This document shows positions 23,069 through 58,840 of a DNA stretch of 64,000 nucleotides, one piece after another (the stretch's first letter is position 1; every line of letters starts with the position of its first letter). Made by a program: the position numbers and the translations under genes. The notes beneath the pieces are model-generated. The model saw nothing but the letters and a program-made list of their open reading frames with translations, was not told where the DNA came from and did not search any database. The stretch is from assembly GCA_017433375.1 (NCBI GenBank), contig JAFRHG010000028.1, positions 24,186-88,185 of the forward strand, given 5' to 3'. The stretch is from Bacillota bacterium. GTDB taxonomy: Bacteria > Bacillota > Clostridia > Peptostreptococcales > Anaerovoracaceae.

Positions 23069-23098
23069 TTTGGTCCTCCTCCTCAGTTTCGCGCCTCA

Positions 23099-23395
23099 TC
23101 AGACAATGGTCAGAATGTCCGTGAATCCGGTCACCTCGAAAATCTCCATGATAGGCTCACCCACTCCAGTGATGGTCATGGTTCCCTGTTTGTTCATGGT
23201 CTTCTGCGCCGAGAGAAGAACACGCAGTCCGGCACTGGAAATATATTCCAGATCCGAGAAGTCCATGGTCAATTCCTCGACTCCGTCGATGGATTCCTTC
23301 AGACAGGCATCCAGTTCCGGAGCCGTCGTCGTGTCCAGACGACCGGAAACCAGCAGTTCAAGCTTTTTTTCCTCACTCTTTTTTTCGATGTTCAT
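23099..23395 (-). CDS. STAS-domain anti-sigma factor antagonist
   Basis: 98 residues, a complete STAS fold with the phospho-serine motif EYISSAGLRVLL, almost identical to that of the fused STAS domain downstream. It is expected to bind an RsbW/SpoIIAB-type HATPase when dephosphorylated, possibly the one in the next gene, 30 bases away. No SpoIIE-type phosphatase is seen in the window. It is preceded by AAGGAGATT as ribosome site. Confidence 0.9.
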   Translation of the reverse strand: MNIEKKSEEKKLELLVSGRLDTTTAPELDACLKESIDGVEELTMDFSDLEYISSAGLRVLLSAQKTMNKQGTMTITGVGEPIMEIFEVTGFTDILTIV

Positions 23396-25595: not shown

Positions 25596-27801
25596 CGTTG
25601 TCCTCCACCCACCGGCAGAATTCCCCGAAGGGAAGCGGCCGGGAATAATGGTATCCCTGGAATGTCTGTATCGGATACTGCCGCAGGATCTGTGTCATGT
25701 TCTCCGTTTCCACGCCCTCGGCGCACACATCGGTGTGATAGATGGCGGCCACGGAGGCGAAATAGCCAATGAGTTCCCGCTCTTTTTCATCCTCCTCGAT
25801 GTCCATCACAAAGGAACGGTCGATCTTTATGGTGTCCAGAGGCAGATCCCTGATCAGGCTGGCCGAGGAGAACCCGGTGCCGAAGTCATCCAGCGCGATG
25901 CGCACGCCCCTGGCCCGAAGCTGGTACAGGACATCCTTCAGGTCCTCCGGATCCAGCAGCCGGCAGCGTTCGGTAATCTCCAGGCAGAGATTATCCGGCG
26001 GGAAATCCTGTTCCTTCAGGATGTCCGCCACCGTGTCCACGAACCCGGGCTTTTCCAGCTGGGTGTAGGACAGGTTCACGTGAACGATGAAATCCGGATG
26101 GGTCTCCATCACCTTCTTCGCGTCCGAAAGGGCCGTGCGCAGGATCCACTGCCCCAGTTCGGGGAACAGGGAATCCCGCTCCAGCACGGGAATGAACTCG
26201 TCCGGCGGGACCATGCCGTACTCCTCGTTTTCCCAGCGAAGCAGGGCCTCCGCGCCGATCATCCTGCCGCTTTCGGCATTTACCACAGGCTGATAGAATA
26301 CGCTGAATCCCTGGAACTGCTGAGTGATGGAAGCACGGATCGCCTGGATCTTCACGATCCAGTGCTGGTTTTCGGTATTGATGTAGTCCCGGAAGACCAC
26401 CAGATCTCCCTGCCTGCGGTTCTTGGATTCCCCATAGGAATAGTTGAGGCAGGAGTAGACCGTCCGGTCGTCAATGTCAAAATTTTCCACACGGACCATG
26501 CCCGCGTTGAGTTCGAGAATGATATATTTGTCATCCAGAGTAAAGCCGTCCCGGAACCGGGCCCGCAGAAGATCGTACTTCTTCTGGATCTCCTCTTCGC
26601 TTCCCGTCGGACCGACCACGGCAAACCGGGGACCGTCCAGCCGGTAGACCTTGCCGGATCCCGCGATGTTTTCCAGCAGAAACCTTCCCACGGTCTGCAG
26701 CAGCCGGTTGCCGAACTGGTATCCATAAACATCGTTGAGCTCGGAAAACCGGGAAATGCCCACCATGGTGATGGACTGCCGGACATGCCTCCTGATCTCC
26801 GCGCGCAGGTCCTCGAAGAACCCGTACTGGTTCCGCAGTCCCGTCACTTCATCGATCTGTCCCTGAATGCCGTGATTGCGAATGGAACCCACGAAGTAAT
26901 CGGGGTTGCCTTCCCTGTCCTGAAGCACGACGCCCCGGCAGGTGCAGACCACATACTTGCCCTCGGCGTTCATCGCCCGGTACTGCATGTCGTGATCCCT
27001 GCTGCCTCCGAAGAATATCCCGTCCATGCCCCTGTGGAAGGCCGGCCGGTCTTCCGGATGGATCCGCTGCTCCCAGAGATAGCCGGCGTCATACATGTAC
27101 TCCGAAGGCATATTGAAAGTTCCCACCGCGGTTCTCGACCAGCGGGAATAATCGTATTTCATATCGCACAGGAAAACGTACGTCCCCTCCGCCACTACGG
27201 CGAAGGCGGCAAACATTTCATCCAGCAGCCGCCGGCGCTCCAGGGGGATGATTTCCGAATCCCCTTCCTTTGCCTCGATCTCATCGGCCCGTATCCTCTT
27301 CAGGGTCAGTTTGTCCTCATCCATCAGATTCCCGGCCGCTTCCAGCACCTCATCGACGCTCCGGTGCTTTGCCGGATCATAGGCCTCCATGCCGACGGCG
27401 AGAACAGGTCCATCCTGCTTTGCCAGGTGATCCAGTGCCTGCTGGCGGAGCCGCAAAAGCAATCCTTCCCGATTCCCATAGTCGTCTTTCATCAGCGCGA
27501 CGGCGAATTCATCCCCGCCGACGCGGAATACCGGACTGTGGGCGAACACCTTGCAGAGCATCCGGCACGCCCGGAAAATATAGTCATCCCCGGTCTCCTC
27601 ACCCATTGTTTCGTTGACCGTCTTCATGTCATTCAGGTTGCAGAGCACCCACGCAAACTCCTGCTCCAACCCGTCAGGGTCGAGCATATGCTGGAGTTTC
27701 TCCTTGAACCTGAGGAAAGCCTCTCTGTTTTTGACGCCGGTCAGGTCGTCCCGCCATTTCGCTTCATTGGCGGTCATGGGAAACGCGCTGCTGCTCTTCA
27801 C
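25588..27801 (-). CDS. GGDEF-PAS-(degenerate GGDEF)-EAL protein
   Basis: 737 cytosolic residues. The first diguanylate cyclase domain starts near the N-terminus (DDLTGVKNREAF) and keeps GGDEF at 95-99. A PAS-like segment (about 200-320) follows. A second cyclase domain starts at DEVTGLRNQYGF but reads LDGPRF where GGDEF is expected, so it is probably non-catalytic. A complete EAL domain follows (GAEALLRW, DDFGTGFSS, IKIDRSFV). Both synthesis and breakdown of c-di-GMP are thus possible. It starts at GTG with AAGGTG upstream, first gene of the seven-gene minus-strand string. Confidence 0.9.
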   Translation of the reverse strand: MKSSSAFPMTANEAKWRDDLTGVKNREAFLRFKEKLQHMLDPDGLEQEFAWVLCNLNDMKTVNETMGEETGDDYIFRACRMLCKVFAHSPVFRVGGDEFAVALMKDDYGNREGLLLRLRQQALDHLAKQDGPVLAVGMEAYDPAKHRSVDEVLEAAGNLMDEDKLTLKRIRADEIEAKEGDSEIIPLERRRLLDEMFAAFAVVAEGTYVFLCDMKYDYSRWSRTAVGTFNMPSEYMYDAGYLWEQRIHPEDRPAFHRGMDGIFFGGSRDHDMQYRAMNAEGKYVVCTCRGVVLQDREGNPDYFVGSIRNHGIQGQIDEVTGLRNQYGFFEDLRAEIRRHVRQSITMVGISRFSELNDVYGYQFGNRLLQTVGRFLLENIAGSGKVYRLDGPRFAVVGPTGSEEEIQKKYDLLRARFRDGFTLDDKYIILELNAGMVRVENFDIDDRTVYSCLNYSYGESKNRRQGDLVVFRDYINTENQHWIVKIQAIRASITQQFQGFSVFYQPVVNAESGRMIGAEALLRWENEEYGMVPPDEFIPVLERDSLFPELGQWILRTALSDAKKVMETHPDFIVHVNLSYTQLEKPGFVDTVADILKEQDFPPDNLCLEITERCRLLDPEDLKDVLYQLRARGVRIALDDFGTGFSSASLIRDLPLDTIKIDRSFVMDIEEDEKERELIGYFASVAAIYHTDVCAEGVETENMTQILRQYPIQTFQGYHYSRPLPFGEFCRWVEDNDG

Positions 27802-44811: not shown

Positions 44812-46302
44812 CTACCGGGAGTCCACGCCGTACTTTTCTTTGAACTGGGCCTTGTCCTCGTACATGGCCGCGTCGGCGCGCCTGAATACGAGTTCCGCCG
44901 TATTGTCGTCCGAGGCGTATTCCGCCAGACCCACGGCGGCGGAGTATCTGAGCCAGGGGGATTCCTCGGTCTGCTCATAGGCCTGGATGAACTGCTCCTT
45001 CAGCTGATCGACGATCTCCCGGCGATGCTCATAATCCGTTCCCTGGAGGAGGGCGACGAACTCGTCACCGCCGATCCGGTATACGGGAGAATGCTTGAAT
45101 GCCTCGCAGACCATATGGCAGCAGCCCTTGAGGTACTGGTCGCCCGCCCTGTGTCCATGCTCGTCATTGATGTTCTTCAGGTTGTTCAGATCGACCATGG
45201 CGATGGCGAACTCCACCTCTTCCGAGCCTTCCAGCTTCTGGTTTATCTCGTTCATTTTCTTGGTGTAGGCCGCCTTGTTTCCTACCCCGGTGAGGGAATC
45301 CGTATAGGACTCGATGCTGAGCTGGTCGATCCGTTCGTCCTTGTCCTTCAGATCGCTTTCCGCTTTCTCCTTGTCCTTCTCCAGAGCGAGCATATCCCTC
45401 AGGTAATCGATGATGTTGATCTGCATGCTCCGGATGCCCTGATATATCTCACCGATCTCATCCTTGCTTCGGATATCGATGTCGATGACGCCGGATTCCT
45501 CATAGCTGAGGGTTTCGGAAGGCTTGAACTTCTTCATTTCCCTGGTCATGCTGTTCAGCGGATTGACAACGACCCTGTTGATGAACAGCACGGCTGCGAT
45601 AAGCACCAGGCAGGTCAGGGCCAGGGCGCCGACGATGAGGAAGATCATCAGTTTCTTCCGTTCCGCCATCACGTCATCCATCCCCACGTCGCAGCCTACG
45701 ATGCAAATGCACTCCCCGTCGGAGTCATAGACCGGCTTGAAGTCGGAACAGAGCCAGCCCCAGTCGCCGTTCGAGATGGTAGGCTCCGGCAGATTGGCGA
45801 TATCCATGCCCAGCAGTTCAGCTTCCCGCTCCTCATAGTATCCGGTTTCGTAGATCGGATTCTCCTTGTCATCGACCAGATACATATCGTGATCCGCGTT
45901 CTTGTCCCCGTGGGCGATGATGTACAGGTACTTGATGCCCTCCATGTTCTCCAGATAGTTGGTGATCATATCCCGGGTCTCACTGTATTTCTCCCACAGG
46001 CCCTTTTCCTTCAGGTAATCCTCGATCAGGGCTTCGTTGGCTTCCTTCTCGGCCTTCTCGCGCAGGGCCTGGAATTCATCTGTTCTGGCGACATCGCGAA
46101 GCTCCCTCAGGAAATCACCGTCGACCATGGTCGCGAAATTGCGGGCGTTGTCCGCCGTGTTCTGCTTATAGTACCGGTCGATCTGATTCGCCTCGGCGTT
46201 AAAGGCAATGGCAGACGTGCCGAATGCCACGGCGAGGACCGTGATGATGACGAAGATGTACATCTTCATCCTGATGGAAGATCGTTTCCTTGTTTTCTCC
46301 AT
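44812..46302 (-). CDS. Membrane Cache-HAMP-GGDEF diguanylate cyclase
   Basis: About 496 residues. Membrane helices near 12-35 and 218-243 flank an extracytoplasmic Cache-like sensor (KYLYIIAHGDKN ... YDSDGECICIVGCDVGMDDV). HAMP and a short coiled-coil follow, then a full GGDEF domain (DSLTGVGNKAAY, NDEHGHRAGDQYL, IGGDEFVALL), so cyclase activity is expected. The start at 46302 has GAGGTG seven bases upstream; an earlier in-frame ATG at 46323 overlaps the preceding pseudogene stop. Last member of a run of sensory genes read from 48.7 kb. Confidence 0.92.
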   Translation of the reverse strand: MEKTRKRSSIRMKMYIFVIITVLAVAFGTSAIAFNAEANQIDRYYKQNTADNARNFATMVDGDFLRELRDVARTDEFQALREKAEKEANEALIEDYLKEKGLWEKYSETRDMITNYLENMEGIKYLYIIAHGDKNADHDMYLVDDKENPIYETGYYEEREAELLGMDIANLPEPTISNGDWGWLCSDFKPVYDSDGECICIVGCDVGMDDVMAERKKLMIFLIVGALALTCLVLIAAVLFINRVVVNPLNSMTREMKKFKPSETLSYEESGVIDIDIRSKDEIGEIYQGIRSMQINIIDYLRDMLALEKDKEKAESDLKDKDERIDQLSIESYTDSLTGVGNKAAYTKKMNEINQKLEGSEEVEFAIAMVDLNNLKNINDEHGHRAGDQYLKGCCHMVCEAFKHSPVYRIGGDEFVALLQGTDYEHRREIVDQLKEQFIQAYEQTEESPWLRYSAAVGLAEYASDDNTAELVFRRADAAMYEDKAQFKEKYGVDSR

Positions 46303-46322
46303 GTCATACACCTCAATACGCA

Positions 46323-47518
46323 TTATTTCGCCAGCAGCCTGCCCAGCAGCCGCATCAGCTGGTCGATATCCACGGGTTTGGACATATGGGCGTCCATGCC
46401 GGCCTCAAGGCAGGACTTCACGTCCTCCTCGAAGGCGTTTGCCGTCAGGGCGATGATGGGGATTGCCTTTGCATCCTCCCTGTCCAGTTCACGAATCTTT
46501 CGGGTTGCCGTCAGGCCGTCCATGACCGGCATCCGCATATCCATCAGCACGGCGCCGAAATGCCCCTCTTCGCTGCGGTCAAACATCTCCACGGCAAGCT
46601 GGCCGTTCTCCGCCCATTCGGAGGTGATGTCCTCCATCTCCGCATGCTGTGCCAGAGTTCCTCCAGCTCATCGGACGTGTTGATCCCCAGCGATTCGAAG
46701 ATAAAGGGGGCGTCCTCCGGCTGTTCCACCTTGTCCCGGGCCGTATACTCCCGGGCCGCTCCGGCCATCACCGTCAGGTGGGATATGATATGCTTCCGCA
46801 GCAGCTGGGAAGACAGGAAGGCGAGGAGCAACACCAGAATCACGGCCACCGGCAGAAGGATCTTCAGGAACCGGAAGATCCGGCCGAGAAAATCGTTCAG
46901 GTCCAGATCCATGACCGCGTAGCCGATCTGCTTTCCCTTCGCGTCAACCATGGACGCGAAATCCGTACCGACCCAGCCGTACTCTTCTTCATGAGTAATG
47001 TGAAGGCGCCACGAGGATTTCTCGATGCCCTTTATTCTGCTGAGGTCCGCCCTGACCCATTGTCCGGGCAGGAAGGCCCACTCTTCCTCATCGCCGTCCA
47101 CCACGTAGACGATGGCACTCTGGTCGGGTTCGGTGAACATGTAGGACACGTTCTTCTGCTCGGTCCCCTCCCGGCATTTCACCAGGATATCCCTGGCCTT
47201 GAAGAAGTCCTCATCCACCAGGGGAACGCACGCCTCCATGAAGGCTTCCGATTGGGGATCGCGGCGGACATCCTCCGGCATACTCCCGTAGACCTTCTTC
47301 GTCTCACGGAAGATCCTCTCCACATAGGACTGGTCCTCCAGAAGAAGGGTGTAGTCGATCAGATGCCGGGATTCGTCCTTGTAGCTGCGCAGGGAGGAAT
47401 AGCCGTAAAGGGCCAGCCCGATGGCGCTGCCCAGAAGAATCAGTATCAGTGAACCCGTCAGGATCACCCGGAAGGTCTTTGTTTTCAGCGATATCCTTTT
47501 GTCCGTCCGGCTATGCAT
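46323..47518 (-). pseudogene. Hybrid sensor kinase reduced by internal deletion and frameshift
   Basis: The first part (47518 to about 46640) encodes a sensor: membrane helix near 18-40, Cache-like domain with WVGTDFASMVDAKGKQIGYAV, a second helix near 230-255 and a HAMP-like linker up to DELEELWHSM. The frame then changes, and the rest reads as the later two thirds of a receiver domain: WAENGQLAVEMF, VLMDMRMPVMDG, IIALTAN and AHMSKPVD. The kinase core (HisKA, HATPase) and the first receiver strand are missing. This is what remains of a hybrid kinase after a deletion of well over 1 kb. The receiver part could still be translated from an internal ATG at 46637. Confidence 0.8.
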
Positions 47519-48740
47519 CGTATGGATCCTTCCCCTCCATCTCCGGGTCAATATCCTTTTCCTTCATCTCGTATTCCGTATCGAGATCGATGAGATGCTC
47601 CATGATTTCCGCGAACCGGGGATCAAACTGGGTTCCCGCCCCGCCTGCGATCTCATCGCGCACTTTCTCCTGGGTGAAGGGCTCACGGTAACTCCGCTTG
47701 GACGTCATGGCATCGTAGGCGTCGGCAACGGAGATGATCCTGGCGATCTCAGGGATCTCCTCCCCCTTCAGCCGGTCCGGGTATCCCCCGCCATCGTAGC
47801 GTTCGTGGTGATGCCTCGCGCCGATGATGAGATCCGGGTACTCATTGACGCTCTCCAGGATTTGGGCGCCCAGCACGGGATGCTGTTTGATGGCATCGTA
47901 TTCCTCTTCAGTAAGCCTTCCCTTCTTGTTGATGATGTCCTCGGCGATGCCGATCTTTCCCACATCATGAAGGAGGGCGATCTGGTATATTTCCTCGCAC
48001 TCGGCCGGGCTCTTTCCATAATACTCCGCGATCTTCTTCGAGTACTCGGCGACCCTGATGGAATGGCCCCGGGTGTACTCATCCATGGCATCGATTGCGT
48101 TTGCGAGAACGGTCGCCGTCTGCTCAAACAGCTGCTTGAGGTTCTTCTCCTCTTCATCCTTCCGGTAAAGGGTGACGCCGAACATGATCAGGGTGTAGAC
48201 GATGCCGCCGACGATGAACAGCCCGGCGATGGAATCGAAATAGTTCTGCCCCCTGGTGTACTCCGTCACCAGCTCCGGATACTCATATCCGAGGATCCAG
48301 CACAGGGCGAGCATGATCCCGTTGATGATGAGCATAACCACCCGCATCCGCCCTTCCAGGATGAGGCCGATATATATCGTTCCGAGAAGCAGCCACAGGG
48401 GCGCGCCGCCCTGGGCGCCACCGTTGGTAAAGAACATGATGGGCAGGAAAAAGACCACTACTACGACGGAAAGAACGACCTTCGCCTGGGCGATCCGGTT
48501 TCTCCTGAATACGTAATAGATATAGGCGGAAAAGGCAACCGCGCCGATGAATGTAGATACCGTTGCGGACAGGGGCTCACGCATGACCATGCCCAGGGGC
48601 ACAGCAGCAAAAAGAGCGACCAAAATCAGGCACGAATACAACACAAAAGATCTGTCACTCAGACTGACCGTTGAATCGAAAAAGTATTCTTTTATCCCTC
48701 TATGATTCGCTTTCAAACCGATCACCTCTCCATGGGCCAT
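47511..48740 (-). CDS. Membrane HD-GYP c-di-GMP phosphodiesterase
   Basis: 409 residues. About six membrane helices occupy residues 30-190. A linker leads to a complete HD-GYP domain: GHSIRVAEYSKKIA, LLHDVGKIGIAED, HHHERYDGGGYPDRLKGEEIP and ADAYDAMTSKRSYR, so c-di-GMP hydrolysis is expected. The start is uncertain: the ATG at 48740 has no good ribosome site, whereas a TTG at 48716 follows GGAGAGG at normal spacing. The stop overlaps the start of the disrupted hybrid kinase. Confidence 0.9.
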   Translation of the reverse strand: MAHGEVIGLKANHRGIKEYFFDSTVSLSDRSFVLYSCLILVALFAAVPLGMVMREPLSATVSTFIGAVAFSAYIYYVFRRNRIAQAKVVLSVVVVVFFLPIMFFTNGGAQGGAPLWLLLGTIYIGLILEGRMRVVMLIINGIMLALCWILGYEYPELVTEYTRGQNYFDSIAGLFIVGGIVYTLIMFGVTLYRKDEEEKNLKQLFEQTATVLANAIDAMDEYTRGHSIRVAEYSKKIAEYYGKSPAECEEIYQIALLHDVGKIGIAEDIINKKGRLTEEEYDAIKQHPVLGAQILESVNEYPDLIIGARHHHERYDGGGYPDRLKGEEIPEIARIISVADAYDAMTSKRSYREPFTQEKVRDEIAGGAGTQFDPRFAEIMEHLIDLDTEYEMKEKDIDPEMEGKDPYDA

Positions 48741-48769
48741 GGATCGTTTACATTACCGCAGGTGATATT

Positions 48770-49219
48770 TCAGTCTCTCGTCACGGCACCCATACTCTTC
48801 AGTTGCATCTTGCGCACGTACATCAGATCGTCGGCACGCTTGAATACCTCGTGAAAGGACTCGTCCCGGTCGCGGTCGAACTCCGCCTGGCCCAGTGAAG
48901 CAACCACTTTGCCATTGGCCAGATTGTGTTCGATCTGTACATTGATGTCGCGCAGGATGTCGTTTCGCGCCTCATAGTCACGGCCCTGCAGAAGCACGAC
49001 GAACTCGTCGCCGCCGATCCGGAAGCCCGGGCTGTGCTTGTAGTACTCGCAGAGCAGCATGCAGGCGGAGCGGATATACTCGTCCCCGGCCTTGTGGCCA
49101 AGGGTGTCGTTGATCTTCTTGAGTCCGTTCACATCGCATACGACGACACCGAAATCCTCCGCCTCGCCGCCTGTTTGTGACTCCTCCATTTGTCCTGCTC
49201 CTATGCTTAACCTATACAT
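48770..49219 (-). pseudogene. GGDEF domain truncated at its N-terminus
   Basis: The frame encodes VVVCDVNGLKKINDTLGH, then IGGDEFVVLLQ and a standard cyclase end (FKRADDLMYVRKMQ). It lacks the first strand and helix that carry the D-x-LTG-x-xN segment, as well as any sensor domain. Its upstream end meets sequence next to a decayed IS element, so the front was probably lost in an insertion or deletion event there. The active-site loop remains, but a fold without the first 30 residues is unlikely to work. Confidence 0.7.
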
Positions 49220-49326
49220 GGTATTGTACCACTTTCGCACCGCCTCCGTCCACTTTATCCAAAAGAGTGATCGTGTCAACTTAGGTTGGGAAATTGGCAC
49301 AGACCTTTTTGATCATAGGTTCCTGA

Positions 49327-50756
49327 ATCCTCGGATGTTTGACACCTGAAAACGCTCAAAGCCAGTTCAGTACCGATCATCTGGTCGAAAAAGGCAAACA
49401 GCTTTCCTTCAACATCGGCTATCTGTTTCTTCAGCGAATCTACTGCCGACTTTTGAGCAGTCAAAGGCACTGATGGAGCAGCCGGCGTTCGATCTGCATC
49501 AGATCTACCGTGCCCTTTCTGTGCTTTCCGATCATTCGGATATAATCCAGGCGGAACTGTACAAGCGATCGAAAAAGGTCATCAAACGCAGCACAGGCGT
49601 CCTGTTCTATGACTGCACCAACTACTTCTTCGAATTGGAACAGGAGTCGGGTCTGAAACAGTATGGGCCAAGCAAAGAGCACCGGTCCAACCCGATCGTC
49701 CAGATGGGGTTGTTCATGGACAAGTCCGGAATCCCTCTTGCGTTCTGCATCAATCCGGGCAACCAGAATGAGCAGTCTTCCCTGAAGCCTCTGGAACTGC
49801 AGATCATGCGGGACTTTGAGTTATCTAAATTTGTCGTATGTACCGATGCCGGGCTTTCATCGGATGCGAACCGGCGGTTCAACAACTTCGGCGAACGCAG
49901 TTTCATCACAACACAGTCCATTAAGAAACTCAAAAAAGAGTTGAAGGAGTGGTGCCTCGATCCGACGGGATGGGAGCTGGAAGGATCACGAAAGAAACAT
50001 GACATCTCGAAATTGGAGGACACACCGGAAAACCGAAATAGAATCTTCTACAAACAGAGACTCATCGAAGGATATGACGAGGAACGGGATATCGCTTTTG
50101 ATCAGACTCTCATCGTCACCTACTCTCTGAAATACGGGATCTATCAGCGGACGATACGCGAACGCCAGATCGAGCGGGCGTTGAAGTATCTCAAAACACC
50201 CGGGGCGGCAGACAAGCGGTCGCAGACAGACGCGAAACGTTTCATCAAAAGAACCGCCGTCACAGATGATGGTGAGATCGCGGAGAAGGCCGCTTACGAA
50301 CTTGACACGGAAGCCATCGCAGAAGAGGCCAAGTACGATGGGTTCTATGCGGTATGCACGAACCTCGACGATGACCCGGCGGACATTGCCAGGATCAATC
50401 ACGATCGATGGGAAATCGAGGAGTCATTCAGAATCATGAAATCCGAGTTTGAAGCAAGACCGGTCTATCTTCAGAGGGACGATCGGATCAGAGCTCATTT
50501 CCTCACCTGCTTCATCTCCCTGATGATCTATCGGATCCTGGAAAGGCAGCTGGGCGAAAAGTACACCTGTGAGGAGATCGTCTCCACCCTGCGGAGCATG
50601 GACATGAGACAGTTGGAGGACCATGGTTTCATTCCGAACTACAAGCGGACCGATCTGACCGATGCCCTGCATGAAAACGCCGGCTTTCGGACGGACTACG
50701 AACTAACAACTCCCAAATCCATGGCCGGGATCATTCGCAGATCTAAAGGACTGTAG
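49327..50756 (+). pseudogene. IS1634-like (IS4-type DDE) transposase, N-terminal part damaged
   Basis: From 49473 a 427-codon frame encodes the catalytic core: FYDCTNYFFE (first Asp), VVCTDAGLSS (second Asp), and DRWEIEESFRIMKSEF (Glu with the Y/R-E-K type signature). IS1634-type transposases are about 550 residues. Upstream, in another frame, is part of the missing N-terminus (LSFNIGYLFLQRIYCRL), followed by a stop. Some 60-70 codons between the two are absent. An internal deletion with frameshift has thus disabled it. Lower GC and different codon use mark it as foreign. Confidence 0.8.
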
Positions 50757-50964: not shown

Positions 50965-53900
50965 TCAGTCATCGCCCATGAGGAACCGCTTGTTGATCCT
51001 GCCGGCATTCTCCGCGCCTGTCGGTTCCGGCATGGCAGCCAGTTTCTCATCCACTTCCGCAAAAAGATCGGGGATGCTGACCCCTGCGGGATCCTCCGCG
51101 GCAACAAGGACCGACGCGAAGGCATTGAAACTGTTCAGCATCTTCTGTACCGTTTCCTGTCTGTAGAGATTGCTCTGGTAGATCATCACCAGCGTGAATC
51201 CCGCTGTCTTGTCCAGGACCACTCCGCACAGATGGTTGGGGGAGAACAGCGTCTCGCTGTACTCCACGGGAAGCTCTTTCATCCCGATCTTCCTGAATGA
51301 ACCGGCGCTCCCCATGATGCGTTCCGTTTCATAGAACAGGGAATGCACTTCCCGCAGCCTTCCGGGAACCAGCAGGTCGCTCCAGTTATGGTTCCCCCGC
51401 TGCACGTTGCCGATGGACTGGGCCCGGATATCGTCATAGTGTTCCGCCAGGTTCCTGCAGACGCCCAGCTTCGCCCCGAGGGGCAGCATCATATACAGGC
51501 CGCCGATGGCTTCGTTGCTGGCCTGATCGGTTCTGTTGTGGAAGGCGTAGGCCATCAGGACATCTTTTCGTCCGGTGCACCGGGCGAGGGCCAGCAGCAT
51601 GCAGATATTGAAGAGCTGGTTTCTGGTCACTCCCGTATTCTTCTCGAAGGCGGCCACTTCCTCCTGCGTCACGTCGGCGGGAAGGGCGCATGTGCCGGTC
51701 CCCTTTTCCTCCAGCTCGTAATCGTGCGCCAGTTCGTAGGCCCAGTCGGTATTCCCGTAGCGTTCCATGACGTACTGCTCATCTTTTTCGAAGCCGTCCG
51801 CTTCCCCGCTTTCTTCCCACCTCTGGATCGTCGTGTAATAGGTGTCCAAAGGCAGGGGTTTGCCTTCGTAGGCATCGGCGATGCGCCGGTACAGGATGCT
51901 CTTCGCCATGCCGTCGGTGGCTATGTGATGCCGGTTGATGAAAAGATATCCGCAGCTCTCCGTCTCGAACATCCTGAACTGATACAGGTGGGTGTTGATG
52001 ATATCCGTATGGGTCCCCAATCCCTTTCGGATCTCCTCGAACTCCTCGTCGGTCACGTGCTCGATCTCCACCACCGGGCACTTCTCCGGCACGTAGCGCT
52101 GCCTCAGTTCACAGTCATCGTCGAAATAGATCATGGTGGAACAGATCGGCGCGTTCCGGATCACCTCGTTGACGGCATCTGTCAGCCGCTGTATGTTCCC
52201 CTTATCCTCGATGCGGAAAAGGGTCTGGAGGTTCCAGGTGGAATACTTCGGCTTGAACAGGGAGCTGTCCAGCATGTACACCTGGGTCGGCGTCAGACGG
52301 TGGGGGACCTTCCTGGCTTCCATCTCGTACTCTTCCGGACTCATCATGGAAGCGGCCGTGATCCTCTTGGTGTATATGGCCGCGATCCGTTCCGATGTGA
52401 TTCCCGTATAGATATCGGTGGAACTCAGCTGCTCCCAGTCCAGATAAACGAGCAGTTCCATGGCGGACAGGGAGTCTCCTCCCAGTTCGAAGAAGTCATC
52501 CCTGACGCCGACCCGCTCGATGTGCAGGACCTCTTCGATGCCTTTGCAGATCTTGGCCTCCAGGTCATTCCTCGGCGCCACGTATTCCGCCCGGTAGCTT
52601 GAGGTGTCGGGCTTGGGGAGCACCTTCTTGTTGATCTTGCCCGTGGGAAGCAGGGGGACCTCATCCAGTTTCACGTAGTAGGTCGGGACCATGTAGTAGG
52701 GAAGCACGGCGCCGAACTTTTCCTTCACTTCGACGACGTCGAACTCCAGATCATCGGTGTAGTAAAGGCAAAGGAAGGCCTTGTCCTGATCCACGAAGCC
52801 CTTGGCCACGCACCAGTCGATCCCCAGGATCTCCTTGGCGTGCCGCTCGATCTCCGCCGGCTCCACCCGGTTGCCGTTGATCTTGATCATGTCGTTGATC
52901 CTGCCGGCAATAGCGTAGTTTCCATCCTCCAGCTTTCTTCCCAGGTCTCCCGTATGGAAGAGCCCTCCCCGGAGGGCTTCCTCCGTCGCCTCGGGCAGGT
53001 TGTTGTATTTTCTGAAATAGGGATTCTCGAAGCAGATCTCGCCTACTTCTCCGTCCCCGACCTCCTTGCCCTCCTCGTCCAGAAGCCGGATCCGGATCTC
53101 CTCGAAATTGGGCACGCCGATGGGGATATGCTCCCCTTTCTCTTCGATCCTGTACTGGGCCACGACGAAGGCCGACTCGCTCATGGTGTAGTTGTTGATC
53201 AGGTCGGCGCTCTTAAGGGAGATCCCGTTGGGGGGTTCGCTTCCCGTAATGACCCGCTTCAGGTAAGGGCCGAAATCGTCTCCGGCGGCCCGGATGACCG
53301 ACGGGGCCATATGGGCATCCGTGATCTTATGGGCCAGATAGTACTGTTTCAGTTTCCTCGGGTTCTTGATGGTCTCCGTGGGTATGATGAAGATCCTCAT
53401 CCCGGTGTAGATGCCGTGAACGATGAACTTCAGCGCCGCCACGAAGTTGAGGGGCGGGATTAGCCCGAAGCGGCAGCCGCCGGCATTCCAGGCGTCCACA
53501 TAGGGTTTGATGGCCGTGAGCTGGATCATTTTCAGTTTCCCGTACTCGTGGACCACGCCCTTGGGATTTCCGGTGCTGCCCGAAGTGTATACGGCGAAGC
53601 AGGCGTCGTGGGGATCGGTTGGCTCATACCCGGCCAGGGGCTCCTGCTCCATGGCCTTCGCCCAGGTGTCGAGGTCGATCCTGGCCCTGCATTCGCAGTC
53701 CCGGTAAATGTAGTCGATCCGCTCGTCCGCATAGTGGCTGTCCACTACGGTGAACGCCGCTCCGGCTTTGAGGACGCCAAGGATGGCCGAGACCACCTGG
53801 ACGCATCTGGGCATGCAGATCATGACGAAGTCCTCTTTGCCGATGCCCTTGCCTTTCAGGTACGCATAGACCCTCGAGGCCTCATCGTCCACTTCCGATC

Positions 53901-54018
53901 TTCTGCGGCCGTTGGTCGCGACTCCGTCGTAGGTGAACTTCCATTCCGGCATCTCTTTCACGTGCCTGTTCCATTCATCGAGGATGTACGGGAAACGGTT
54001 GACTTTATCCAGATCCAT
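50965..54018 (-). CDS. NRPS-like protein, adenylation-carrier-condensation (copy 1)
   Basis: 1017 residues. Adenylation domain (1-470) with YTSGSTGNPKG (A3), NNYTMSES (A5), FHTGDLGR (A7), GRINDMIKINGNRVEPAEIE (A8) and LPTGKINKK (A10, catalytic Lys). Carrier domain with ELGGDSLSAMELL, phosphopantetheine Ser516. Condensation domain (about 590-1000) with active NRHHIATDG (H697, H698, D702). The A4 position that binds the amino group in amino-acid-activating enzymes reads PPLNFVAAL with Asn191, as in aryl-acid activators, so the substrate may be a non-amino acid (inference). No thioesterase or reductase domain. Third gene of the operon, 12 bases after the MATE-fusion gene. Confidence 0.9.
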   Translation of the reverse strand: MDLDKVNRFPYILDEWNRHVKEMPEWKFTYDGVATNGRRRSEVDDEASRVYAYLKGKGIGKEDFVMICMPRCVQVVSAILGVLKAGAAFTVVDSHYADERIDYIYRDCECRARIDLDTWAKAMEQEPLAGYEPTDPHDACFAVYTSGSTGNPKGVVHEYGKLKMIQLTAIKPYVDAWNAGGCRFGLIPPLNFVAALKFIVHGIYTGMRIFIIPTETIKNPRKLKQYYLAHKITDAHMAPSVIRAAGDDFGPYLKRVITGSEPPNGISLKSADLINNYTMSESAFVVAQYRIEEKGEHIPIGVPNFEEIRIRLLDEEGKEVGDGEVGEICFENPYFRKYNNLPEATEEALRGGLFHTGDLGRKLEDGNYAIAGRINDMIKINGNRVEPAEIERHAKEILGIDWCVAKGFVDQDKAFLCLYYTDDLEFDVVEVKEKFGAVLPYYMVPTYYVKLDEVPLLPTGKINKKVLPKPDTSSYRAEYVAPRNDLEAKICKGIEEVLHIERVGVRDDFFELGGDSLSAMELLVYLDWEQLSSTDIYTGITSERIAAIYTKRITAASMMSPEEYEMEARKVPHRLTPTQVYMLDSSLFKPKYSTWNLQTLFRIEDKGNIQRLTDAVNEVIRNAPICSTMIYFDDDCELRQRYVPEKCPVVEIEHVTDEEFEEIRKGLGTHTDIINTHLYQFRMFETESCGYLFINRHHIATDGMAKSILYRRIADAYEGKPLPLDTYYTTIQRWEESGEADGFEKDEQYVMERYGNTDWAYELAHDYELEEKGTGTCALPADVTQEEVAAFEKNTGVTRNQLFNICMLLALARCTGRKDVLMAYAFHNRTDQASNEAIGGLYMMLPLGAKLGVCRNLAEHYDDIRAQSIGNVQRGNHNWSDLLVPGRLREVHSLFYETERIMGSAGSFRKIGMKELPVEYSETLFSPNHLCGVVLDKTAGFTLVMIYQSNLYRQETVQKMLNSFNAFASVLVAAEDPAGVSIPDLFAEVDEKLAAMPEPTGAENAGRINKRFLMGDD

Positions 54019-54030
54019 GGTTTCTCCCTT

Positions 54031-55785
54031 CTATTGCTTTTGCTCTTCCTGCCTGAAGCTGATGATCAGGTTGTTCAGTTTCAGCGTGTTGAGATATCTG
54101 ACGTCGTCGGCGAGCCCGTAGATCATTCTGATCCCGTAGTGGCTCTCCTTCTCCTCCGGGGTGATGCTTTCCACGTAGGCGACGGGATCGAAATTCCTGC
54201 AGTCGTCCCTGAACCGGAGGATCCAGCGCTCTCCGTCCTTCTTCAGCTTGACATCCACATGGTGGGACCTGCCGTCATCGAATCCGTGGCGGATGATATT
54301 GCCCGCCATTTCCTCCACGGCCAGGGCCGCGTAGATGCTGATCCTGTCCGACGCCCCCTTCTCCTTCATGTACAGGCGCGTCTTCTCCGAAGCCTGGACG
54401 GCATCCTCCATGGAGGCGACCTTCATCTCCAGGGGTCCGATCTCATCGTCATACTCTTCCGGTATCATCATGACCCGCTCGATGAGGCCGCGGCCCTTAG
54501 CCCGCCTGTTCTTCACCAGGGCGATCGTCCCAAAGATGATCAGCGACACCAGTTCTCCCAGAGGGAGGGATATCCATACGCCGATGATCCCCACGGTCTT
54601 TCCCAGTGCAAAGGCAATCAGTGCCGTGGCTACGAGGCCGTTGACTATGGCATAGGGTATGGTGATGGGCATCTTCATTGCCTGGTAATATGACCGCAGA
54701 CAGAAATTGATGGAGTAGAGGATCGTAATGAACACTGCGATCTTAAGACCGAGTTCGGCATCGGGAAGCAGTGACTTGTCCTTGAGGAACAGAGAAACGA
54801 CACCTCCCGAAAAGATTATGAAAACGATGATGCATATCGCATTGAAAATGACCGAGTATACTACCGACAGCTTGATCAGCGTGATGAGATCCTGTTTGTC
54901 CTTCTCCGCGGCGAAGATCCCGGTGAGGACAGATACTGCCGCCGCCATCCCGGATCCTATGGCCATGGCCATGTTCATGGCCGAGGAAATGGCAGCATAG
55001 ACGGCGACCATATGCATCCCCGCGATAGCCAGGATCAGGATGTTCAGCACCATGGTCAGGATATTCCTGCAGCCCATGGACACCGCGTTAGGCGCACCGT
55101 AGACCGCCATTTCCCGGATCATGGACGCGTCCAGCCTCTCCGGTCCGATGGACAGCATGCTGCTCTTCGACTGGATGGTCGCCAGGATCAGAACGAGGGC
55201 TACGTAGAAACTGATGGTGGTAGCCAGCGCCATCCCGAACATTCCCCCGTGCACCAGGAGAACGTTGACAAAATCCAGGAGGATATTGACCCCGGACAGC
55301 GTCACGATAGACGCGATCAGGAAGGGGCGCTTGCCGATGATCTGAAGCACGGGCATAGCGAGGACGACCAGGAATATGGGCGGGATACCGATGGCGTATG
55401 CCCTCATGTATTCCACGGCCATTCCGTGGACCTCGCCTTCCGCCTTCAGGGCTGTGGCGATGGGATTCGCCAGCAGGATGATCCCCGCTGCGATTGCGGT
55501 GGAAACGATGAGGATCGTCCAGAAGCAGACCCTGAACGCCCTCTTCATCTCATCCATCTCCCCCTTGCCCAGTTTGGACGAGAGCAGCGTGGATGTCCCC
55601 ACCGACATGGCCGAGGCAATGGCGGTGATCACCGTCAAAAAGGGTGTGGCAAGACCGTATGCCGCCAGCGCACTGGTGCCGAGGAAACTTCCCGTGACGA
55701 TGCCGTCGATGATGTTTCCGATGATCGTTGTCACATAGGTGATCAGCTGTACGGAAAAGAATGTGAGGAATATCTTTCTGATCAT
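54031..55785 (-). CDS. MATE-family transporter fused to an anti-sigma-type HATPase domain
   Basis: 584 residues. Residues 1-445 form a complete 12-helix MATE (MOP superfamily) exporter. After a linker, residues about 455-580 form an RsbW/SpoIIAB-like HATPase fold with the N box AVEEMAGNIIRHG (E492, N496). G1 is altered (RDDCRNFDP instead of DxGxPFDP) and G2 reads ESHYGIRMIYG instead of a Gly-rich GGLG loop, so kinase activity is doubtful. It sits between two paralogous NRPS genes, overlapping the first by ATGA, so it probably exports or flips their product. The soluble domain may regulate the exporter or bind a STAS protein (inference). Confidence 0.9.
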   Translation of the reverse strand: MIRKIFLTFFSVQLITYVTTIIGNIIDGIVTGSFLGTSALAAYGLATPFLTVITAIASAMSVGTSTLLSSKLGKGEMDEMKRAFRVCFWTILIVSTAIAAGIILLANPIATALKAEGEVHGMAVEYMRAYAIGIPPIFLVVLAMPVLQIIGKRPFLIASIVTLSGVNILLDFVNVLLVHGGMFGMALATTISFYVALVLILATIQSKSSMLSIGPERLDASMIREMAVYGAPNAVSMGCRNILTMVLNILILAIAGMHMVAVYAAISSAMNMAMAIGSGMAAAVSVLTGIFAAEKDKQDLITLIKLSVVYSVIFNAICIIVFIIFSGGVVSLFLKDKSLLPDAELGLKIAVFITILYSINFCLRSYYQAMKMPITIPYAIVNGLVATALIAFALGKTVGIIGVWISLPLGELVSLIIFGTIALVKNRRAKGRGLIERVMMIPEEYDDEIGPLEMKVASMEDAVQASEKTRLYMKEKGASDRISIYAALAVEEMAGNIIRHGFDDGRSHHVDVKLKKDGERWILRFRDDCRNFDPVAYVESITPEEKESHYGIRMIYGLADDVRYLNTLKLNNLIISFRQEEQKQ

Positions 55786-58757
55786 GCTTCTACTTGGTCC
55801 AAGATGTCTTTTATTGAAACTGCCGCAGGATCCTCGATACTGGTCAGCACCTTCATGAAGCCGTCAAAAGTCCTGCCGAATTTCGCGATGGTTTCCGGTT
55901 CATAAAGATGATTCTGATAGACGAATACGACGGTGAATCCTTCCTCTGTATCCAGCACCATCCCCATGATATTTCCGGGGAACAGCTGAGGTTCGGAGGA
56001 GTAGATCTCATCCTTCTCCATGCCGATCTCCTCAAACATCTTCTCGCTGCTCATGATCTCGCTGGTCTCATAGGTGATGGACGAACTCGCATAGATCCGG
56101 TCCGGTATGACGATCTCGTACCACCGGTAATTGCAGTGCTGTATGTTTCCTGTGGACTGGGCCCTGACATCGTTGACCAGCTCCGTCAGATTCCGGTAAT
56201 GGCCAAGCCTGAGGCCCAGCGGGAACGCTTTATAGATTCCGCCCACCGCTTCGTTGCTGATCGGGTCTGTTCTGTTGTGATAGGAATAGGTCATCAGCAC
56301 ATCCATGTTGCCGGTGCTTTTAGCCAGGCTCAGCAGCAGCACGATATTGAACGCCTGATTTCTCGTCAGTCCGCTGTGCGCCTCGAATTCCTTCATTTCC
56401 TCCTGGGTCACGCTGATCGGATAAGGATAGAATTCATTTGATTTTTCCTTCAGATTGCGATCGTGGGCGATGTCGTATGCCCAGTCGATCCCGCCGTAAC
56501 GATCCTCATAATACTTGCGTCCCGCCTCCGTGTACTCTTCCGTCAGAGACGCCTCCCATCTCGCCAGATAGGAATAATAGGTGTCGAGAGGCAGGGGCCT
56601 GCCCTCATACGCATCGACAATGCGCCGGTAGAACAGGGTCTTCGACATGCCGTCGGTACCTACATGATGCCGGTTGATCATCACATATCCGCCCTTTTCG
56701 GTCTCGAACAGCCGGAAGGTATACAGATTGCTGTTGATCACATCCGTATGCACCACCAGACCCTTTTTGATCTCCTCAAACTCAGCCTCCGTGACATGCT
56801 CGATCTCGACCACGGGACAGGTATCCGGCTCATAGCGCTGCCGGATCTGGCTCTCATCATCAAAGTACATTACCGTGGAGCAGATCGGGGTATTCCTGAT
56901 CACCTCATTCAGGGCATCCCTCACCTTTGCCACATTGTCCCTGTCCTTTATCCTGTACAGCTCGAACATGTTCAGGGTATTCTTCTTCGGTCCGAACAGG
57001 GTGATGTCAAGCATGTATATCTGGATCTCGGTCAGATCGTGAGGATGCTTCCGTGCCTCCATCTCGTATTCCTCCGGCGACATGATGGAAAACGCGCTGA
57101 TGCGCTTCATGTACAGGGCGACGATCCTCTCGACGGTTATGCCGGCGTATATGTCGTTGGAACTCATCTGATCCCAATCCAGATAGACGAGCAGCTCCAT
57201 GGCCGACAGAGAGTCTCCGCCCAGCTCGAAGAAGTCGTCCCTGATGCCCACATTCTGCACATTCAGCACCTTTTCGAACCCCTCGCAGAGCTTCTTCTCC
57301 AGTTCGTTTCTGGGCGCCACATATTCGACCCGGTAATTTCCGGTGTCGGGTTTCGGCAGCGCCTTTTTGTCGATCTTGCCGTTGGGGAGCATGGGAACAT
57401 CGTCCAGCCTGATGAAATAGGTCGGAACCATATAGTAGGGAAGCACGGCGCCGAACTTTTCCTTCGCTTCGATAACGTCGAATTCGATATCATCAGTGTA
57501 GTAAAGGCAAAGGAAGGCCTTGTCCTGGTCCACGAAGCCCTTGGCCACGCACCAGTCGATCCCCAGGATATCCTTGGCGTGCCGCTCGATCTCCGCCGGC
57601 TCCACCCGGTTGCCGTTGATCTTGATCATATCGTTGATCCTGCCGGTCAGGACGTAATTTCCGTCCTCCCGCTTTCTGCCCAGGTCTCCCGAATGGAAGA
57701 TCCCTCCCCGGAGGGCTTCCTCCGTCGCCTCGGGCAGGTTGAAGTATCCTCTGAAATAGGGGTTCTCAAAGCAGATCTCTCCCTCTTCTCCGTCCGGGAC
57801 ATCGTTGCCTTCCTCGTCGAGAAGATGGATCTCGATCCCCTCGTAGTTCGGCATGCCGATAGGGATGTGTTCACCCGCCTCTTCGATCTTGTACTGGGCA
57901 ACGACGAAGGCCGACTCGGTCATGGTGTAGTTGTTGATCAGATCGGCGCTTTCAAAAGCAATGCCGTTGGGGGGGTCACTTCCCGTGATGACCCGCTTCA
58001 GGTCGGGCCCGAAATCATCTCCGGCAGCCCGGATGACCGACGGCGCCATATGGGAATCCCCGATCTGGTGATCCCGGTAGTACTGTTTCAGTTTCTTCGG
58101 GTTCTTGATGACATCCGTCGGAACGATGAATATCCTCATTCCGGTGTATATACTGTTGATGATGAACTTGATCGCTGCCACGAAGTTGAGGGGCGGGATC
58201 AGCCCGAAACGGCATCCGCCGGCATTCCACGCGTCCACATAGGGTTTGATGGATGTGAGCTGGATCAGCTTCAGCTTCCCGTACTCATGGACCACGCCCT
58301 TGGGATTTCCCGTGCTGCCCGAAGTGTATACGGCGAAGCAGGCATCGTGGGGATCGGTGGGCTCGTACCCTTCCAGGGGCTCCTCATCCATAGCCTCACT
58401 CCAGGTCTCACGATCGATCCTGAACTTGCATCCGCAGTCCTGGTATATGTAGTCGATCCGTTCGTCCGCATAGTGGCTGTCCACGATGGTGAATGCCGCC
58501 CCAGCCTTCAGAACGCCCAACATGGCCGAGACTACCTGAACGCATCTGGGCAGACAGATCATGACGAAGTCCTCTTTGCCGATGCCTTTGGCTTTCAGAT
58601 GGGCATAAATTCTGGAGGCTTCATCGTCCACTTCCGATCTCCTGCGTCCGCGGATCGCGACCGCATCGTAGACGAACTTCCATTCCGGCATCTCTTTTAC
58701 GTGCCTGTCCCATTCATCGAGGATGTACGGGAAACTGTTTACTCTGTCCAGATCCAT
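55782..58757 (-). CDS. NRPS-like protein, adenylation-carrier-condensation (copy 2)
   Basis: 991 residues with the same order as copy 1 and nearly identical adenylation and carrier domains: YTSGSTGNPKG, NNYTMTES, FHSGDLGR, LPNGKIDKK, ELGGDSLSAMELL. The condensation domain has active NRHHVGTDG (H697, H698, D702) but is more different from copy 1. Asn191 in PPLNFVAAI again replaces the usual amino-binding Asp. The start is the ATG at 58757 with AAAGGGAG; an in-frame ATG 18 bases earlier lacks a site. First gene of the operon; its stop overlaps the MATE-fusion start. Product unknown. Confidence 0.9.
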   Translation of the reverse strand: MDLDRVNSFPYILDEWDRHVKEMPEWKFVYDAVAIRGRRRSEVDDEASRIYAHLKAKGIGKEDFVMICLPRCVQVVSAMLGVLKAGAAFTIVDSHYADERIDYIYQDCGCKFRIDRETWSEAMDEEPLEGYEPTDPHDACFAVYTSGSTGNPKGVVHEYGKLKLIQLTSIKPYVDAWNAGGCRFGLIPPLNFVAAIKFIINSIYTGMRIFIVPTDVIKNPKKLKQYYRDHQIGDSHMAPSVIRAAGDDFGPDLKRVITGSDPPNGIAFESADLINNYTMTESAFVVAQYKIEEAGEHIPIGMPNYEGIEIHLLDEEGNDVPDGEEGEICFENPYFRGYFNLPEATEEALRGGIFHSGDLGRKREDGNYVLTGRINDMIKINGNRVEPAEIERHAKDILGIDWCVAKGFVDQDKAFLCLYYTDDIEFDVIEAKEKFGAVLPYYMVPTYFIRLDDVPMLPNGKIDKKALPKPDTGNYRVEYVAPRNELEKKLCEGFEKVLNVQNVGIRDDFFELGGDSLSAMELLVYLDWDQMSSNDIYAGITVERIVALYMKRISAFSIMSPEEYEMEARKHPHDLTEIQIYMLDITLFGPKKNTLNMFELYRIKDRDNVAKVRDALNEVIRNTPICSTVMYFDDESQIRQRYEPDTCPVVEIEHVTEAEFEEIKKGLVVHTDVINSNLYTFRLFETEKGGYVMINRHHVGTDGMSKTLFYRRIVDAYEGRPLPLDTYYSYLARWEASLTEEYTEAGRKYYEDRYGGIDWAYDIAHDRNLKEKSNEFYPYPISVTQEEMKEFEAHSGLTRNQAFNIVLLLSLAKSTGNMDVLMTYSYHNRTDPISNEAVGGIYKAFPLGLRLGHYRNLTELVNDVRAQSTGNIQHCNYRWYEIVIPDRIYASSSITYETSEIMSSEKMFEEIGMEKDEIYSSEPQLFPGNIMGMVLDTEEGFTVVFVYQNHLYEPETIAKFGRTFDGFMKVLTSIEDPAAVSIKDILDQVEA

Positions 58758-58811: not shown

Positions 58812-58840
58812 ATTATACTAGATTGTCGGTACGATGACTA
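58812..58840 (-). promoter_or_regulatory. Promoter of the NRPS / MATE / NRPS operon
   Basis: Minus strand TAGTCA (58835-58840), 17 bases, perfect TATAAT (58812-58817), about 55 bases before the NRPS start. The stretch from 58841 to 58999 holds nothing else I can recognise. Confidence 0.55.

Follow-up and report, generated by a model that had tools for sequence, protein, structure and literature searches.

The window, a 64,000-nucleotide stretch of a Bacillota bacterium genome, carries on its minus strand (58757-50965) an operon in which two single-module peptide synthetase genes flank a gene for a MATE exporter with an RsbW-like HATPase tail. Our best reading, which we favour tentatively, is that it directs the synthesis and export of acyl conjugates, with the exporter under partner switching of the RsbW/STAS type. 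Under this proposal the operon would make and export one or two small acyl conjugates: ATC1 and ATC2 would each adenylate the same carboxylic acid, one that lacks an alpha-amino group (a keto, hydroxy, aryl, short-chain or fatty acid), load it onto their own T domain and release it through the C domain by transfer to a freely diffusing nucleophile. With their C domains diverged, the two enzymes would probably serve two acceptors, and the MATE protein encoded between them would export the product. The cytosolic RsbW-like HATPase tail would bring export, or else flux sensing, under the control of a partner switch: it would bind a STAS protein whose gene, as far as found, lies only in a locus 27 kb off, and the state of the exporter would be set by STAS binding or phosphorylation. 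The operon and the elements next to it are as follows.

58757-55782, minus strand: ATC1 (P0003), 991 aa; A at about 1-475, T at about 480-560, C at about 565-991
55785-54031, minus strand: MATE-HATPase, 584 aa; MATE at residues 1 to about 430, HATPase_c_2 (RsbW-like) at about 450-584
54018-50965, minus strand: ATC2 (P0001), 1017 aa; A-T-C paralogue of ATC1
58812..58840, minus strand: promoter-like site TAGTCA-17-TATAAT, about 55 bases before ATC1; a consensus match only
49473-50756, plus strand: IS1634-family transposase (327 bits), convergent, some 210 bases beyond ATC2; the next gene downstream

The stop codon of ATC1 and the start codon of MATE-HATPase share an ATGA overlap, and 12 bases separate the MATE-HATPase stop from the start of ATC2. 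An earlier note, made from the letters of this DNA, had described just such a coupled trio of A-T-C, MATE-HATPase and A-T-C genes, and coordinates, Pfam matches and motifs all agree with it. AMP-binding, PP-binding and Condensation score above cut-off in ATC1 and ATC2, and the motifs YTSGSTG, GGDSL and HHVGTDG / HHIATDG are intact, so that each protein has the A, T and C domains of an NRPS module. The middle protein matches MatE at 115 bits and HATPase_c_2 at 42.6 bits (cut-off 27.4), which upholds the C-terminal anti-sigma-type domain ascribed to it earlier, and Pfam finds no thioesterase, reductase or tailoring domain in the three operon proteins, again in line with that description. ATC1 and ATC2 are 70% identical, identifying them as paralogues, and are the sole Condensation matches of the genome (assembly of 1.95 Mb, 89% complete). 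Carrier loading is possible in principle, as the genome has one ACPS-family PPTase match. Given gene length and conservation, a chance finding is of no concern, and the earlier interpretation seems right in outline, if only partly supported by what follows. The promoter-like site is weak, because 8 such sites were found against a mean of 5.0 in shuffles.

The GC content of the operon (53-58%) equals that of its surroundings; composition thus shows no sign of recent transfer, and a composition-based island was rejected. A virus origin was also considered and set aside, the viral contigs scanned holding no relative of the operon. At E 1e-60 there was no ATC match in 48 sampled congeners (genomes 68-100% complete), and this absence, together with the adjoining IS1634-type transposase, leaves room for transfer; no convincing terminal inverted repeats were seen around the transposase. 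Elsewhere in the window, several HD-GYP-, GGDEF- and EAL-like genes, judged by their translations, occupy 23436-27801 and 44812-49300, and at 46323-47551 the reading frames of a sensor-like protein and of a receiver domain overlap without being in phase, which may represent a broken hybrid kinase gene.

Adenylation and condensation domains of the twin enzymes

The ten-residue code of the A domains, read by hand from an alignment to LgrA and then extended across the family alignment, is VAKHIGNFVK in ATC1 and ATC2 alike. Most amino-acid A domains have at position 235 an Asp that binds the alpha-amino group; ATC1 and ATC2 both have Val there, and so lack the residue expected of a domain for alpha-amino acids. 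Across 27 aligned rows (both window proteins and the outliers L027, L028, L029, L037 and L041 included; the membership differs from that of the 27 loci of the neighbourhood count below), 23 have Val or Ile at position 235, two have Ala and one has Asp, while in one the position is missing. Only 2 rows retain the motif A5 Pro, and of the 25 with a replacement 15 have Met; Met at this position is also frequent in acyl- and aryl-activating enzymes. Within the pocket, His278 and Asn322 are common only to the window clade (ATC1, ATC2 and the relatives L007 and L020), position 278 being Phe or Tyr in the remaining rows (one missing), and Lys239 occurs in this clade plus L026 and L034. In the accessible text of one review, aliphatic residues at 235 are seen in A domains for alpha-keto and alpha-hydroxy acids, and the keto-acid domain StsA has Met in place of the A5 Pro (PMC11253843); the keto-acid rule for an aliphatic 235 is stated again, with a named exception, in the available part of a second (PMC10949194). 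McyG has Val at 235 and is nevertheless given as Phe-activating in the same accessible text (PMC11253843), so Val235 is compatible with an amino acid as the substrate of ATC1 and ATC2. The shared code, with Val for Asp235, suggests that both enzymes probably activate one and the same acid without an alpha-amino group, a substrate class that we infer from pocket residues.

Identity between ATC1 and ATC2 is 83% in the A core and 86% in the A sub-domain but 54% in the C domain. The C domain of ATC1 is nearest to those of L007 and L020 (76-78% identity), and in the C tree ATC2 falls outside the group of ATC1, L007 and L020 (support 100/99), whereas in the A tree it pairs with ATC1 at moderate support (85/75). 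The conflict would be accounted for if the A domain had undergone conversion between the tandem copies. Divergence of the C domains, at 54% identity and with discordant trees, makes two acceptors likely, and one donor with two acceptors is the simplest reading of the pair. This combination of a shared donor code with diverged C domains is new beyond the earlier note, as is the linkage to partner-switch genes described below.

A single A-T-C module with a terminal, motif-intact C domain fits transfer of the acid to a free amine or alcohol, which was the reaction originally envisaged for these proteins. By sequence, the C domain has its best solved relatives among peptide synthetase domains (C, E and others), and the identity of the acceptor was not readable from the C domain by comparison with solved structures. 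ATC1 and ATC2 might instead form an ordinary split NRPS and work one after the other on a single product, an arrangement that would suit the tandem ATC pair also present in L016 and the multimodular relatives in L042 and L043. We consider this very unlikely, given that the A codes of the two proteins are identical, that no C domain precedes either A domain and both chains end in one, and that 26 of the 27 other loci have a single ATC gene in the available stretch (with its frame broken in L009, L017 and L019).

Recurrent linkage of ATC genes to MATE and partner-switch genes

The ATC enzyme family is recurrently linked to MATE and partner-switch genes (STAS, HATPase, SpoIIE). A scan of genome contigs gave 14 ATC loci, assigned to Lachnospiraceae, Lachnospira, Ruminococcus, Clostridiales, Clostridia and Firmicutes and mostly from MAGs; the title of one names the yak rumen, and relatives with RUG names we take to be rumen genomes. 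Of 393 genomes searched in the order, 13 had ATC matches at 1e-130; the corresponding figures were 18 of 391 for the class (1e-150) and 3 of 398 for the phylum (1e-180), counts that include the genome studied here and multimodular NRPS. Neighbourhoods were fetched for the single-module ATC matches and some others, and were annotated with a simple ORF finder and small custom profiles, with Pfam for a selection only. The resulting 27 loci omit the window, duplicate fetches (L022, L023), multimodular or distant loci (L039-L043) and an A-APH fusion (L029). Since L032 and L038 share 99% identity across 3.3 kb, the set amounts to 26 distinct loci; L014, L015 and L017 are related, as are L024 and L025. 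The genomes of the near-identical pair (G779 and G589) are placed in different families, pointing to recent transfer or contamination. The A-APH fusion (L029:443-2812) joins an adenylation domain to an APH kinase domain in 789 aa, with no carrier or C domain found.

Within 5 kb of ATC, a MATE gene was found in 11 of the 27 loci (1.18 copies expected, Poisson P 5e-8), directly adjoining ATC on the same strand in 7, a STAS gene in 7 (0.32 expected, Poisson P 5e-8) and a SpoIIE gene in 3. Background density was taken from 28 carrier genomes with 114 STAS and 425 MatE matches in about 65 Mb (rounded sizes), MatE being counted there at E 1e-15 and in the loci with a laxer custom profile; at least L015, whose MATE is broken, and L024 miss this bar, and with nine loci P becomes 4e-6, and with a doubled background 8e-4. 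Because the loci are related to each other, these Poisson values overstate independence. In the available flank (181 kb in total) no MATE was seen in 16 loci and no STAS in 20, and since many loci lie on short contigs, the missing neighbours are partly cut-offs.

Two loci hold ATC, MATE, STAS, HATPase and SpoIIE together, L010 in the order ATC-MATE-HATPase-STAS-5TM-SpoIIE and L015 as ATC-MATE(broken)-STAS-HATPase-SpoIIE. L018 reads ATC-MATE/HATPase-STAS/APH, L017 reads ATC-MATE-STAS at a contig end, and the trimodular NRPS locus L042 also has a MATE/HATPase, a STAS, a HATPase and a SpoIIE gene. Fusions of the window type lie near ATC in L018, L019 and L020, and weaker tails in L024 and L037; in L016 and L034, ABC transporter genes stand beside ATC in place of MATE (by Pfam for L016 only). 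Type-B carboxylesterases of about 550-580 aa occur near ATC in 4 of the 27 loci (L011, L024, L025, L031), a hint of an ester product or of its cleavage. At L019:4520-5902, a partial C domain and half a MATE share one frame on a MAG contig, which may be decay or misassembly.

Near the window operon there is no STAS or SpoIIE gene, so that its MATE-HATPase lacks the nearby cognate STAS expected of an RsbW-type system. The assembly has just two STAS matches; they lie at window 21440-23395, 27 kb from the operon and outside it, and are possible switch partners in trans.

21440-23068, minus strand: P0004, STAS-APH-HATPase_c_2 protein, 542 aa
23099-23395, minus strand: stand-alone STAS protein, 98 aa

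The APH part of P0004 matches TIGR02172 at 103.6 bits, below the cut-off of 228.2; to our knowledge, partner-switch halves are seldom found with a kinase-like domain set between them. We dropped P0004 as the operon's own switch, because such adjacent STAS pairs recur in six genomes of the family (G000, G339, G233, G350, G390, G372), with one STAS in or beside a short frame and the other in a frame of about 530-550 aa (excepting G372, where the first STAS is in a 641 aa frame with a stop). The pair seems to be a general trait of the family, and thus not one dedicated to the window operon; any STAS partner that the exporter tail may have would be this pair, acting in trans.

The MATE-HATPase fusion

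An AlphaFold model of full-length MATE-HATPase has a pLDDT of 76.4, lower in the tail, and its MATE fold matches 3wbn with a TM of 0.82 by target length, so that MatE repeats and fold agree in making it a MATE protein. Asp27 and Asp171 are invariant in five MATE-HATPase fusions and may correspond to the coupling acids of PfMATE. A profile from five fusions, with matches required to reach the HATPase end at E 1e-75 or better, gave 26 matches; they come from 16 of the 325 genomes searched in the order, and all but one of these 16 genomes belong to the same family (the genome studied here included). The genome-context search that the earlier note had proposed thus finds a real and recurring architecture. 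Judged by these matches, the MATE-HATPase is an architecture of its own and forms a coherent subfamily, most of which retains the principal nucleotide-site residues, while some members are plainly degraded in the HATPase part (for example L020, L042, L094 and L095). A 549 aa MATE, L027_4, was tried as a further fusion and rejected, having no HATPase-like tail by the custom profile.

We compared 28 fused HATPase domains scoring above 25 bits, a cut that favours intact domains and omits the degraded tails L024_8 and L037_6, which are weak and missed by Pfam. The N-box Glu is present in all 28, the N-box Asn in 21 and the G1 Asp in 24; the G1 Gly is kept in 6 and lost in 22, with Cys in 20, compared with Gly in 10 of 10 free HATPase domains (one of these, L074_6, being a doubtful match inside an ABC-type gene). 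The window tail keeps N-box Glu, Asn and G1 Asp and has Cys for the G1 Gly. This replacement, with the further loss of motifs in several fusions, makes kinase activity doubtful. Used alone against solved structures, the window tail matched nothing relevant and no solved RsbW; a profile that mixes fused and free domains (A6) matched RsbW 6m36 (E 7.6e-9) and SpoIIAB 1th8 (E 3.1e-5).

We also fetched 23 fusions irrespective of ATC genes; their identity to the window protein is 20-29%. Within 5 kb, seven of them have a STAS, SpoIIE or other HATPase gene by profile (one, in L074, being the doubtful match inside an ABC-type gene) and three an adenylation or C domain (L077, L088, L090); nine have a neighbour of either kind and in 14 none was detected. 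In L088, an alpha/beta hydrolase fused to an AMP-binding enzyme (L088:9958-12810, 950 aa) adjoins a MATE-HATPase and three more AMP-binding-like genes, the third by custom profile only.

These counts bear on a simpler account, in which the operon is a plain conjugate cluster with a MATE exporter whose HATPase tail is an inherited feature of the lineage, structural or vestigial, and no switch exists. The occurrence of the fusion irrespective of ATC genes, the 14 fusions without detected partner genes, the loss of the G1 Gly and further decay of several domains all speak for it, as do L017 and L010, where ATC is followed by a tail-less MATE of about 470 aa (and in L010 by a separate HATPase gene next). 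However, the 23 fusions compared have little identity to the window protein, and at such a distance a vestige would hardly keep the N-box Glu in every domain and a G1 Cys in 20 of the 28; moreover, STAS or SpoIIE genes adjoin several fusions (L018, L042, L077, L085, L089, L091, L096). We regard this account as having a real but minor chance.

Alternatively, the MATE-HATPase may be a transport sensor, in which flux sets the kinase and STAS phosphorylation reports the product level to a distant regulator such as a sigma factor or diguanylate cyclase. Consistent with this are the mostly kept motifs of the fused kinases, the fact that L010 and L015 have complete switch sets that include SpoIIE, the resemblance of the L015 SpoIIE to SiaA (75.9 bits, far under the cut-off of 700) and a GGDEF gene adjoining ATC in L032 and L038 (one near-identical locus); but no sigma factor was found among the Pfam-scanned selection of neighbours, and the window holds no direct link to such a regulator, which leads us to consider a sensor unlikely.

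We return to synthesis and export of acyl conjugates with a partner-switched exporter as the tentatively preferred reading. A bolder proposition, which we hold to be doubtful, is that a MATE protein with the kinase half of a partner switch represents a new class of transporter, in which release of conjugates is gated post-translationally by STAS binding or phosphorylation and which serves twin enzymes passing one acid to two acceptors. If true, partner switching would act here on a transporter and not on a sigma factor or enzyme, and the operon would point to unexplored small acyl conjugates from Clostridia. None of the findings speaks specifically for the earlier suggestion of an envelope system.

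Comparison with known systems

The earlier note knew of no described pathway with this layout. That holds for the open-access literature searched (titles and abstract starts, with subscription literature mostly outside its range), in which no description of a MATE-HATPase protein or of an ATC and partner-switch cassette was found, and the available text of a rumen survey of 5,346 NRPS clusters (PMC8241843) is likewise without this layout; the chemistry, on the other hand, does have a described relative. The fatty-acid-amide (FAA) systems of gut Clostridia, for example OaaA/OaaACP/OaaC of Coprococcus eutactus, use a fatty acid on a carrier, a C domain from a clade near starter C domains and a free small amine, and Clostridia are already reported to make host-receptor ligands by this related chemistry (PMC13142362, in its accessible part). 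As far as that text describes them, they are the closest described chemistry to the window operon: both are from Clostridia, both have A, carrier and C activities with no thioesterase in the described set, and in both an acid is joined to a free small amine through a C domain without an acceptor carrier, putatively so on the operon's side. They differ in that the FAA proteins are free-standing A, ACP and C, whereas A, T and C form one chain in both window enzymes; in the C motif, (D/H)HxxxDS/A with Gly in only 17% for FAA, a rule that is therefore not absolute, against HHxxxDG in the window; and in the MATE and partner-switch components, which the accessible FAA description does not include (PMC13142362). 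Since both the separate proteins and the DS/DA motif are lacking, the window operon is best described by analogy, as working like the FAA systems and not as a member of them.

The likeness to colibactin ClbM and the MATE proteins of other NRPS clusters lies in the linkage of a MATE to such a cluster, and the fold matches of the MATE-HATPase model include the ClbM structure 4z3n; the listed ClbM chain, however, is 431 residues long and lacks a HATPase tail, and colibactin is made on a multimodular assembly line. With RsbW and SpoIIAB the window tail shares the HATPase_c_2 domain, but it is fused to a transporter, has Cys for the G1 Gly and has no sigma factor seen nearby. A formal parallel is provided by the SLC26/SulP transporters, which, according to the available text of PMC8256260, carry a C-terminal STAS domain: in both cases a membrane transporter bears one half of a partner-switch pair, the STAS half in SulP and the kinase half in the window MATE, so that, if our reading is true, the exporter described here would be the mirror image of SulP.
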